From: a virus
Reading direction: 5' to 3' (one strand)
Length of the DNA stretch: 20,884 nucleotides
IMG/VR virus record: IMGVR_UViG_3300017917_004120
Location: 1-20,884 of that record
Position numbers and translations under genes: made by a program. The notes beneath the pieces were generated by a model that made no database searches, had not been told where the DNA came from, and saw nothing but the letters and a program-made list of their open reading frames with translations. Shown here one piece after another: positions 3,343 through 9,699 of this stretch. Position 1 is the stretch's first letter, and every line of letters starts with the position of its first letter.

Positions 3343-3694
3343 AAAAATAAACAAAGATACTTTTCCAAACCAAAAACTTGTGGTTACGCATCCGCTTATT
3401 GCAATGCTACCAGATTATCTTAAAGATCCAGCTAATTTTAAGGAAATTGAAAAATTGATATTGAATACTTTTATATCAAAATGCGACCACAGCGACATGC
3501 TGGAATGGTCAAAATGTAGTGAATGCACGGATAAAATGCTTCAGAGAAGATTGATTTTGAAAAGACTTGGCTTCAAAAATGCAAGGCAGTATATGTTGTG
3601 GAAAAAAATTCACAAACAAATAATTGAAAGGTTTCCCTTAATTGACTGGAAAAAAGAAAATGAAGTTAGAAGACAATTAGACTTAAAAAAATGA
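3329..3694 (+). CDS. Zinc-ribbon-like hypothetical protein, 121 aa
   Basis: The centre carries KCDHSDMLEWSKCSEC (residues 51-66), with Cys52, His54, Cys63 and Cys66 spaced as in a small zinc-binding knuckle. It is followed by a basic helical region (MLQRRLILKRLGFKNARQYM) and a C-terminal helical tail. This pattern of a short metal knuckle plus basic helices suggests nucleic-acid or protein binding, but no function is established. It starts inside the end of the previous gene and its TGA overlaps the ATG of the SET gene at 3691, so the three genes after the large terminase are probably one translational unit. Confidence 0.7.
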   Translation: MSDSKKINKDTFPNQKLVVTHPLIAMLPDYLKDPANFKEIEKLILNTFISKCDHSDMLEWSKCSECTDKMLQRRLILKRLGFKNARQYMLWKKIHKQIIERFPLIDWKKENEVRRQLDLKK

Positions 3695-4104
3695 GCACTC
3701 AAGAAGATTCAATAGCAATGTTAAACACGCTGGTCAAGGTTAAACTGGCGCCGTCCAAGATTGATGGCGTTGGTTTATTTGCTTTATACGATATTACAAA
3801 AGGTCAAAAATTGTATGTAAATATGTTTCCACAGGCATACAGAATACCGAAAGGAAGCATTAAAAAATTATTTCCGTGTGTTAGAGAATTGCTTTGCGAA
3901 CGCTGGCCTCAAATAATGAAAGGTTCCGCATTTATGTATCCGGACACATATCTTGAAGCGTATATTAACCACAGCGACACGCCAAACTACGATTCAGTGA
4001 ATGATGTTGTATTAGAGGATATAAAAGAAGGTGATGAAATTACCAGAGATTACAGAAAAATAGAAAATTGGGAAGAAGTTTATCAGTGGTTGAAAAAGGT
4101 ATAG
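3691..4104 (+). CDS. SET-domain protein, candidate lysine methyltransferase
   Basis: SET domains transfer a methyl group from S-adenosylmethionine to protein lysines. The 137 residues carry the diagnostic set in order: an N-terminal DGVGLFA turn (25-31) after a basic strand, YINHSDTPNY (91-100) giving the Asn-His-Ser cofactor motif, and GDEITRDYR (114-122) with the catalytic-type tyrosine at 121. There is no post-SET cysteine cluster, and the insert between residues 45 and 85 is short, so this is a minimal bacterial or viral-type SET protein. It is coupled by ATGA to the zinc-ribbon-like gene and ends the terminase operon; promoter P2 follows 19 bases later. The substrate is unknown: a virion protein or a host DNA-binding or ribosomal protein are equally possible. 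Confidence 0.82.
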   Translation: MSTQEDSIAMLNTLVKVKLAPSKIDGVGLFALYDITKGQKLYVNMFPQAYRIPKGSIKKLFPCVRELLCERWPQIMKGSAFMYPDTYLEAYINHSDTPNYDSVNDVVLEDIKEGDEITRDYRKIENWEEVYQWLKKV

Positions 4105-7416: not shown

Positions 7417-7977
7417 ATGAATAAAGTTAGAACAATATTTTTACTTCTTGCGGTGGTGCTTTCTGTGATCGTAGTAATTAAGATATTAAATTTTACAGTT
7501 GCAGAAAATCCTATCAAGACAGAAGTTCAACGCCCCGGCTCTGTAACCAGTCCAGAAATTACATCAAATTATCTTTGTGTCGGAGGAGTATGCAGATATT
7601 ATTACAGAGTTGCAGCAAGGAATATTAGGGCATTGACTGATACAGGGGCTGTGGGTACATCAACAATTTGTGCAATAAAATCGCCCGCGGCAACTTCAAC
7701 ATTGGTTTCAGCTTCGGTTGCATTGTCCACAGGAGCAACGACAACGGCCATACTGGATATGGCAAAAAGTGCCAATGATAACGCAACAACAACGCAGATC
7801 GGAAATACAATCAGTTTGACAGCCGGACAAAAAGTTTATTTGGTTGCTTCCACTACGCCAACCGCCGGAGAAGTAACGACATTCCCGCCATCATATTACT
7901 TCATTGTGAAGATGGCACAACTTGGCAATTCCTTCAGTCCGGCAGGGTATTGCAATACAGTATTTGAAATTCAGTAA
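7417..7977 (+). CDS. Membrane-anchored Thr-rich protein, 186 aa
   Basis: Residues 6-24 form a hydrophobic segment after a basic tip (MNKVRTIFLLLAVVLSVIVV), followed by a Thr/Ser/Ala-rich extracellular-type domain. Three cysteines (CVGGVC and a later TSTICAIKSP) plus one near the C-terminus (AGYCNTVF) could form disulfides outside the cytoplasm. Segments such as ATSTLVSASVALSTGATTTA are typical, in my memory, of surface and phage proteins from Patescibacteria. It shares topology with the protein at 6810. Position between portal and scaffold suggests a virion or export-linked role, but membrane anchoring is unusual for a head protein. The structured RNA at 7995 follows directly. Confidence 0.65.
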   Translation: MNKVRTIFLLLAVVLSVIVVIKILNFTVAENPIKTEVQRPGSVTSPEITSNYLCVGGVCRYYYRVAARNIRALTDTGAVGTSTICAIKSPAATSTLVSASVALSTGATTTAILDMAKSANDNATTTQIGNTISLTAGQKVYLVASTTPTAGEVTTFPPSYYFIVKMAQLGNSFSPAGYCNTVFEIQ

Positions 7978-7994
7978 CTAGTTTCTTGAAATTA

Positions 7995-8102
7995 AAAACT
8001 TCTACATGCTTTGGGGCAATCAGCTGATGCCCGAAAGGAGTTTATGTAGAAGTTTTCTCCTTTCGGACATTAACCGATTGCTCAAAAAGCGATCGGTTTT
8101 TT
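7995..8102 (+). ncRNA. Structured leader RNA with two alternative folds (candidate attenuator)
   Basis: Within the 211-bp gap before the scaffold gene, three long complementary pairs overlap. Helix A: 7995-8007 pairs perfectly with 8044-8056 (13 bp), and its loop holds a small hairpin (8014-8018 with 8028-8032). Helix C: 8027-8040 pairs with 8057-8070 (13 of 14), and its loop contains the 3' arm of A, so full A and full C exclude each other. Helix E: 8014-8021 pairs with 8076-8083 (8 bp, one G-U); it encloses C with a five-by-five internal loop and takes away the 5' arm of the terminator at 8074-8096. One fold leaves the terminator free, the other blocks it. I do not match it to a known riboswitch or ribozyme class. 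Confidence 0.6.
8074..8102 (+). terminator. Intrinsic terminator upstream of scaffold and capsid
   Basis: CCGATTGCT (8074-8082) pairs with AGCGATCGG (8088-8096) in a 9-bp stem with one G-U pair around CAAAA, followed by six T residues (8097-8102). It can be read as the output element of the switch-like RNA directly upstream, since its 5' arm can instead pair with 8014-8021. It would isolate the portal block from the scaffold-capsid block. Confidence 0.75.
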
Positions 8103-8107
8103 GCTGG

Positions 8108-8135
8108 TTATCATTCATCCTCAAAAAATTATTAT
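8108..8135 (+). promoter_or_regulatory. Weak candidate promoter for scaffold and capsid
   Basis: TTATCA (8108-8113) and TATTAT (8130-8135) stand 16 bp apart, the same spacing as the clearer promoters P1 and P2, directly after the terminator. The -35 match is poor and the region is A/T-rich, so this may be chance. A tiny frame (ATG 8142 to TAA 8168, MSSVYPYR) lies between it and the scaffold start. Confidence 0.25.
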
Positions 8136-8188
8136 TAAAAAATGAGTAGCGTTTATCCTTATCGTTAATAAAGGGAACAAAAAAAGTT

Positions 8189-8782
8189 ATGACAACTGAA
8201 ATAAGTCAAGAAGACGGCGCACAGTCTCAAGAGGGCGCAGGAGAAGGTGAACAGATTACTGGTGAAAGCGGAGACGCTGAAATTGTCTCAATCTCTAAAA
8301 CAGATTACGACAAACTAAACCAGACACTCGGTTCTCTTAAAAGGGAACTCAAAGATTTGAAAAAATCTAAAGAGGAAACTCCAAAAGAAACTCCTAAACA
8401 AACCAAACCAGACGAAATTGGATTATTGAAAGAAAGACTGGAGAAGCAAGCAATCCGCGCTGCGGGGCTTACACATCCAGACGATATAGACCTTGCGAGA
8501 AAGACTGCAAAAAAATGGAACTTAGACATTGATGATGTTCTGACTGATGATGATTTCAAAGTAAAACTTGAACGCCAACAGACAGCTAGAGCAAACATTG
8601 AAGCTAGTTCAAATGTTAAAGGGGCAACAGGGCAGTCTCAAATGAAAGATTCGCCTGAATATTGGATTGCAAAAGGCATACCGCCTTCCGCAAAAGATGT
8701 TCCGGATCGCAAAGCAAGAGCCAAAATTGCGAGAGCAATGATGGCAAATGCTAAATCAAGCAAGACATTCTATAACGATTAG
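8189..8782 (+). CDS. Capsid scaffolding protein
   Basis: Scaffolds guide capsid subunits into a closed shell and leave before or during packaging. The 197-residue product has the usual make-up: an acidic, Gln/Gly/Glu-rich N-terminus (1-35), a charged coiled-coil region (about 40-65), a low-complexity Lys/Pro/Thr linker, then a helical block at about 76-140 (IGLLKERLEKQAIRAAGLTHP, then KKWNLDIDDVLTDDDF and RQQTARANIEA) that I recognise as typical of phage scaffolds, and a basic C-terminus likely to touch the capsid protein. It has no hydrophobic core domain or protease motif. The major capsid gene follows 50 bases later, the standard order. Confidence 0.85.
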   Translation: MTTEISQEDGAQSQEGAGEGEQITGESGDAEIVSISKTDYDKLNQTLGSLKRELKDLKKSKEETPKETPKQTKPDEIGLLKERLEKQAIRAAGLTHPDDIDLARKTAKKWNLDIDDVLTDDDFKVKLERQQTARANIEASSNVKGATGQSQMKDSPEYWIAKGIPPSAKDVPDRKARAKIARAMMANAKSSKTFYND

Positions 8783-8832: not shown

Positions 8833-9699
8833 ATGTCGTACGCCAACACAATAACTTACGAAACATTATACGAGGATGTCCTTCAAGACAGACTTGATCA
8901 CCCGACAACTTGGAAAGAAATGTGCAATGTGTCCATTCAGGATACACGCGTTATTTCCACTTCATACATGTCAACCACGCCTTCGGTTCAATCTGTAACT
9001 AGAGGTACTGGCCATGCTATGCAGACCTTTGTTGAAACTGCGGAAACACTAACAATTTCCACAGGCAGAGACTTGGGTTTGTTTGTTGACTGGGCTGATT
9101 TGGCACAATCGCCGTGGACTAAACCGGCCGAACTATTCGATAGAATAGGCGCTCTTTTGAATGAATATATTGAATCAGGTTTCTTGGGGCAATATGCTTC
9201 TTGGACTGATTTTGATAATTCTTCAATAGGTGGCTCGGCAGGAAATATTTCTGTTTCTGCTCAAAATATTGATGACATTATCAGAGGTATCAAGAGAGAA
9301 ATCAGAGAAGCGAACGGAGGAATGCTGATGAAGCAAAACGGAGTCGGATTTGTCTGGAGAGCTGCTGATTTTGAATATCTTGAGGCATTCGTCCAAGCAA
9401 ACGGTTTCGTATCAGCCGATAAAGCTCTTGCGGATGGAATTACAGAAGGTTTGAAATACATGGGTGCTGATCACTATTGGTCAAATGATCACACTTCAGG
9501 ACACGTATTTGCCGGAGTAAAGAAAATACAGAGACTCGGAATTTTGAGAGGCACATATGGTAGAGCACACACGATTGATTTCCCAGCCGGTGATTCTAAC
9601 TCATACCTTTCAGGAAGATCGTTCTATTCAAGGGTAGATATTGGACATCTTACGCCGACCGCTCATGCGGGACTCGTATTTGATGTGCAAGTTGCATAA
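8833..9699 (+). CDS. Major capsid protein
   Basis: It forms the icosahedral head shell. It is 288 residues, follows directly after the scaffold gene, has no signal or membrane segment, and shows a balanced mix of helices and strands expected of an HK97-fold protein. A long helix lies near residues 93-115 (AELFDRIGALLNEYIESGF), with a strand-rich C-terminal region containing HVFAGVKKIQRLGILRGTYGRA. Order (portal, scaffold, this gene, connector) and size make the assignment strong even though no single signature motif exists for this fold. A stable hairpin follows its stop and may protect the mRNA or reduce read-through. Confidence 0.85.
   Translation: MSYANTITYETLYEDVLQDRLDHPTTWKEMCNVSIQDTRVISTSYMSTTPSVQSVTRGTGHAMQTFVETAETLTISTGRDLGLFVDWADLAQSPWTKPAELFDRIGALLNEYIESGFLGQYASWTDFDNSSIGGSAGNISVSAQNIDDIIRGIKREIREANGGMLMKQNGVGFVWRAADFEYLEAFVQANGFVSADKALADGITEGLKYMGADHYWSNDHTSGHVFAGVKKIQRLGILRGTYGRAHTIDFPAGDSNSYLSGRSFYSRVDIGHLTPTAHAGLVFDVQVA

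Follow-up and report, generated by a model that had tools for sequence, protein, structure and literature searches.

A putative two-state attenuator ahead of the scaffold and capsid genes in a group of related phages

An element of about 110 bases, located between a 186-aa open reading frame and the probable scaffold and capsid genes of a phage, is best explained as a conditional intrinsic terminator within the structural-gene operon. It is probably a transcription attenuator, composed of anti-antiterminator, antiterminator and terminator, that gates the scaffold-capsid operon. The window analysed was IMG/VR virus record IMGVR_UViG_3300017917_004120, positions 1 to 20,884 (20,884 bases), and the same architecture was found in about 20 related contigs of uncultured phages, in largely unrelated sequence and with one copy each. 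A two-state exchange between terminator and antiterminator had been proposed in the earlier note on this DNA and is supported by comparison, in that the terminators keep competing helices and both folds, strong in the window, covary in the relatives. Stopping and read-through of the polymerase at the element, and the gated capsid expression that would result, are inferred; there are no transcription, probing or read-through data, and the reason for a terminator ahead of a high-copy protein cannot be shown.

Competing folds in the window

The features of the region are listed in table 1. The gene names portal, scaffold and capsid were given by position and conservation only; the three proteins had no PHROG or Pfam match, unlike the large terminase. 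A SET-domain protein is encoded near the portal gene (3691-4104; PF00856, 2.1e-6), and SET domains recur in related phages.

Table 1. Features of the element and its flanking genes in the window.
Feature	Position	Strand	Remarks
Open reading frame upstream of the element	7417-7977	+	186 aa, no family match; stop codon 17 nt 5' of helix A
boxA-like conserved motif	7986-7997	+	TTGAAATTAAAA in the window, TTnACAATTAAA as consensus of the family; overlaps the start of helix A; identity as boxA inferred
Helix A 5' arm (anti-antiterminator)	7995-8007	+	base-by-base check, folding, covariation
Rod (antiterminator) 5' arm	8008-8040	+	8008-8012, helix E 8014-8021, 8025-8029, helix C 8031-8040
Helix A 3' arm	8044-8056	+	apical loop of the rod in state 2
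Rod (antiterminator) 3' arm	8057-8090	+	8057-8066, 8068-8072, helix E 8076-8083, 8086-8090; includes the terminator 5' arm
Intrinsic terminator	8072-8102	+	stem 8072-8082/8088-8098, T-run 8097-8102
Probable scaffold gene	8189-8782	+	197 aa without a family match; named from its location 5' of the capsid gene
Probable major capsid gene	8833-9699	+	288 aa without a PHROG or Pfam match; named from position and conservation

Pairing was checked base by base. The earlier note had described a perfect 13-bp helix A, a 13-of-14-bp helix C interleaved with it, an 8-bp helix E removing the 5' arm of the terminator, and an intrinsic terminator, and all four were borne out (A, 13/13 paired; C, 8027-8040/8057-8070, 13/14; E, 8/8; terminator stem, 11/11, with six T). 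Its competing fold of E plus C stood as regards the two helices, but is longer than described: two helices that had been missed (8008-8012/8086-8090 and 8025-8029/8068-8072, 5/5 each) connect E and C into a single rod, which extends from 8008 to 8090 and takes up the terminator 5' arm. Part of the rod 5' arm forms a small inner hairpin in state 1. Because the A 3' arm is the apical loop of the rod and abuts the rod 3' arm, a full helix A and a full rod should not be able to coexist, an inference from geometry. Two structural criteria for an attenuator are thus present, namely a GC-containing terminator stem with a U-run and a mutually exclusive antiterminator that uses the terminator 5' arm.

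Minimum free energy folding, which had been called for beforehand, placed both folds far below shuffled sequence. Positions 7990-8110 folded as state 1 (hairpin A plus terminator) at -47.2 kcal/mol (z -5.7), and positions 8005-8110, without the A 5' arm, folded as the rod at -44.6 kcal/mol (z -6.1), with 0 of 200 shuffles as good in either case.

During synthesis the A 5' arm emerges first, followed by the rod 5' arm, the A 3' arm, the rod 3' arm with the terminator 5' arm, and finally the terminator 3' arm. Co-transcriptional folding had likewise been named as a check, and minimum-energy folds of the growing transcript gave A first, the rod once the terminator 5' arm was out, and either state at full length (the terminator state in the window and L034, the rod in L113 and L007). 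In 13 members the rod was the more favourable fold at the decision point, by 0.8-17 kcal/mol, but lay behind a direct-path barrier of 15-23 kcal/mol (findpath). This suggests, on modelled energies, a kinetic switch in which hairpin A forms first and acts as a trap, even though emergence of the terminator 5' arm makes the rod the more stable fold. The folding results favour the attenuator, with the reservation that energies were computed for naked RNA and that findpath barriers are rough.

Under the proposed mechanism, the arms of A would pair in state 1 once both have emerged and would block the rod; the downstream hairpin with its U-run would then form and RNA polymerase would halt before the scaffold and capsid genes. 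In state 2, with A delayed or blocked, the rod would form, enclosing the A 3' arm as its apical loop, and would capture the terminator 5' arm, and transcription would go on.

Occurrence and conservation in related phages

The capsid protein had no match in deposited phage genomes; its relatives are encoded on about 100 IMG/VR contigs, to which a portal search added more. TTTS-rich, membrane-anchored small proteins recall Patescibacteria, a resemblance that at most hints at the hosts; a capsid query against the phylum set of a record labelled Nealsonbacteria (genomes of 2-12 Mb, not Patescibacteria-like) gave no match. Most relatives have no element in the gap before the scaffold gene, and three (L007, L034 and L113) have it there with covarying arms. 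A sequence-free descriptor (terminator, E, C and interleaved A) recovered the same architecture, in unrelated sequence, from further relatives, usually in a neighbouring gap. All members read had the element on the coding strand, and it lay nearly always between the portal and scaffold/capsid genes, either behind the approximately 80-aa gene following portal, behind the gene after that one, or immediately 5' of the scaffold gene; this constancy of strand and interval counts towards the attenuator. In three members (G025, G030 and G012) the next start codon follows the terminator stem at a distance of only 20-28 nt, which leaves little room for a second promoter, so that the downstream genes should depend on read-through.

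The exception in position was L475, where the element (L475:2780-2960) stands directly after a TATAAT box and 5' of two small genes (81 and 106 aa) and portal, not of the capsid genes; it can therefore serve another part of the operon. Location also bears on autoregulation, in which a phage structural protein, scaffold or capsid, would bind one of the folds and turn down its own operon, as the P22 scaffold reportedly does. Such control is made conceivable by the position of the element, always ahead of the scaffold/capsid or portal module, and by the ability of protein operators to drift in sequence along with their proteins. It is nevertheless held to be improbable, given the absence of a conserved binding sequence and of a recognised RNA-binding domain, and the L475 element ahead of the portal module.

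In the capsid tree the element was present in 16 of 34 clade-1 records and in 1 of 17 clade-2 records, with at least 10 gains or losses, and L461 and L468 showed a wider spread. Its absence from about half of the clade-1 and nearly all of the clade-2 capsid relatives weighs against the attenuator and implies that the element is dispensable in many phages. One degenerate copy (L407:4810-4960) has kept the rod and a terminator-like hairpin and lost the U-run and helix A, perhaps a step in the loss of the switch.

Chance was assessed on 51 genomes, namely 50 related records fetched whole and the window, with about 1.1 Mb of sequence from related phages and descriptor cut-offs of at least 95 and at least 85. 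At the higher cut-off 12 distinct elements were found, one per genome, with one more at 85; 46 Mb of Markov-shuffled sequence gave no match at the higher cut-off and four at the lower. These counts favour the attenuator, with the caution that a descriptor score alone is no proof: GC-rich bacterial loci preselected for the E pattern scored up to 99, and the argument is therefore carried by synteny and covariation. A DNA-pattern scan of bacterial genomes, followed by the descriptor, gave no convincing element among the matches listed.

A less biased test was started from terminators only. Among 89 intergenic terminators in the 51 genomes, all 13 between the portal and capsid genes scored 66-83 for E, C and A combined, against at most 61 for the other 76. 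G004, which is among the 13, has a minimal form, with a 20-bp A against a 12-bp antiterminator whose loop is the A 3' arm; the 89 do not include the elements of G020 and G026, which an ORF extension covers. According to the earlier note, the switch would be refuted if homologous regions kept the terminator and lost A, C and E; no intergenic terminator without competing helices was found between the portal and capsid genes in the 50 related records and the window, and the refuting condition was thus not fulfilled.

Covariance models were built from four members for the rod (R1) and for A plus terminator (R2). They recovered other members (L341, L358, L332, L338, L311 and L304) and two that the descriptor had missed (L324, 8.6e-8; L313, 4e-4), these matches ranging from 8e-14 to 4e-4. 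Among portal relatives the models found L461 (3.5e-12; portal only 36% identical) and L468, and the descriptor added L475 and L434. A model match at L363:12070 was rejected as not being an element. A MAFFT alignment of four members put helix A of L007 one column off, and the alignment from the model was used in its place.

State 1 was 92% paired over 36 pairs in 14 sequences, and 32 pairs showed double changes (15.9 ± 2.3 in shuffles); state 2 was 91% paired over 30 pairs in seven sequences, and 18 pairs showed double changes (7.6 ± 1.8 in shuffles). The observed numbers were reached in 0 of 500 shuffles for either state, and partners slid as a control were only 36-48% paired. The terminator helix was 94.8% paired across the 14 members. 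The alignments were fitted to the structures, so the numbers are somewhat inflated, and this tempers their support for the attenuator. The covariance search proposed in the earlier note thus recovered relatives in which both folds covary; judged by these comparisons, both folds are kept by evolution while the sequence has changed almost completely.

The same results bear on two other readings. A plain terminator or an RNase III processing site would involve no switch; one fold would matter and the other would be a by-product of the inverted repeats. Between phage genes, long hairpins frequently serve as processing sites, and the rod would be a good double-strand substrate. Little weight is given to this possibility since the terminator, A and rod helices all covary despite shared strands, and since a competitor accompanies all intergenic terminators of the portal-capsid interval and not the other terminators. 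A metabolite riboswitch with an undescribed aptamer would share the expression-platform logic of transcriptional riboswitches, but none of the 36 state 1 pairs is invariant across the 14 members and helix A turns over freely, which makes an aptamer unlikely; with no Rfam match in addition, this reading is regarded as very remote.

Other structured RNA was noted in the same gaps. Small H-type pseudoknots, unrelated to the element, occur in portal-capsid gaps, including those of phages without the switch, in the form stem - TTNT - Y - stem' - A-rich - Y' (e.g. GGGGTTATCACACCCCTCAAAAGTGA), with both helices varying in step. They were located at G001:9510, G007:13031, G011:6234 and 6264, G013:5753, G017:5342, G024:10688, G027:20962, G028:9989, G040:4316, G049:6487 and possibly positions 8104-8150 of the window; a weak descriptor gave 26 matches against 5-11 in shuffles. 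In shape they resemble small pseudoknot riboswitches or the T4 gene 32 leader. Five clade-2 phages without the switch (L101, L106, L081, L091 and L094) have in common a conserved sequence of approximately 30 bases, GAAGYTCNTTYACAATTRAATATGYTATAATG, 5' of the scaffold gene, in which a boxA-like stretch leads into an extended -10-like box. Structured inserts of 200-400 bases, intron-like by eye, precede the scaffold or capsid gene in L123 (=L022), L142, L115 and L148, where one follows a capsid N-terminal fragment; Rfam gave no match for L022.

The upstream motif and possible triggers

The 32 bases 5' of helix A share the motif TTnACAATTAAA (8.1 bits, against 5.35 ± 0.40 in shuffles) at -3 to +13 nt from the helix; going by the sequence comparison, it is the one conserved sequence of the family, beside helix A. 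The position of the motif in the window was assigned by eye, and the motif finder chose another. Members matched the published boxA consensus, GYTCTTTAANA (PMC5725501), better than did shuffled windows (P 1e-4) and better than did sites following the other stop codons in these phages.

A factor that acts at the boxA-like motif next to the A 5' arm is the best single hypothesis for the trigger, although it is the least certain part of the analysis and is advanced only tentatively. Were the motif a genuine boxA, Nus-type proteins bound to it, either NusB-S10 and NusA of the host or a phage protein, could hold the A 5' arm away and favour the rod, so that a nut/rrn-like signal would be coupled to a strand-exchange terminator. 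The information content, position and consensus similarity of the motif speak for this. Against it stand two mismatches to the published consensus in the best matches and four in several, the AT-rich composition of the motif and its resemblance to a -35 box, and the lack of a boxB-like conserved hairpin; there are no binding data. That the element represents a new family of phage leader RNA, in which an antitermination signal of the boxA type is joined to a strand-exchange terminator under kinetic control, is more doubtful still; if so, boxA occupancy during transcription would decide whether the anti-antiterminator folds and hence whether the capsid operon is expressed.

A TTGACA-like motif was rejected as a promoter of a T7-like phage polymerase (no such gene among the Pfam families listed, at most 25 to a list, for the scanned genomes) and as a sigma-70 promoter (the members read have no normally spaced -10 box).

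Alternatively, the ribosome finishing the upstream gene, or one on a leader peptide, could decide whether A folds. The upstream stop codon lies 11-18 nt 5' of helix A in 9 of 13 members, a spacing that hints at translation coupling; in three further members it is 27-38 nt away, and from the footprint of the ribosome, termination at 11-18 nt should leave A free. In L475 and L468 a promoter-like TATAAT stands just upstream and no leader ORF is evident between this box and helix A, which argues against ribosome control of the trp type. Ribosome-coupled attenuation is accordingly judged unlikely. A start-stop mini-ORF (GGAG-TTT-ATG-TAG in the window, GAGG-TTT-ATG-TGA in L007) was discarded, being absent in L034.

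Comparison with known systems

No Rfam family matched the window or 17 records with members at gathering score, and matches below it were at chance level. A hammerhead ribozyme (CUGAUG...GAAA) was excluded, with a core that was not conserved and no Rfam match. No description of such an element was found in the open-access literature, subscription literature being outside the scope of the search; the impression in the earlier note that no phage RNA of this shape had been described holds to that extent.

Late control in phages is usually credited to promoters and protein antiterminators; if the attenuator reading is true, a structurally conserved RNA switch family would act on phage structural genes. 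Two competing folds kept with almost no conserved sequence escape sequence-based and Rfam-style searches, and similar switches may be hidden elsewhere.

Plasmid antisense attenuators of the pT181/pIP501 type have a leader of variable sequence, with a pre-emptor strand as competitor for the terminator 5' arm. The element has both properties, but no antisense promoter was identified in a general promoter scan, made of the window only, and the downstream stretch in G025, G030 and G012 is limited to the 20-28 nt given above. Like a transcriptional riboswitch, it provides a terminator/antiterminator platform in an untranslated stretch, in its case without a conserved aptamer. With lambda nut sites and rRNA leaders (PMC5725501) it shares a boxA-like motif directly 5' of a hairpin and genes located beyond a terminator. 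Unlike these, it carries its own mutually exclusive terminator and antiterminator, its motif only resembles boxA, and no N-like protein or boxB was identified. In attenuators of the trp/his type, three competing hairpins (anti-antiterminator, antiterminator and terminator) decide read-through during transcription. The element has the same three hairpins; it differs in that no leader peptide was found, in that its antiterminator consists of a single long rod whose loop is the A 3' arm, and in that its target is a phage structural operon. By its logic the element is an attenuator; as a family it appears to be undescribed.
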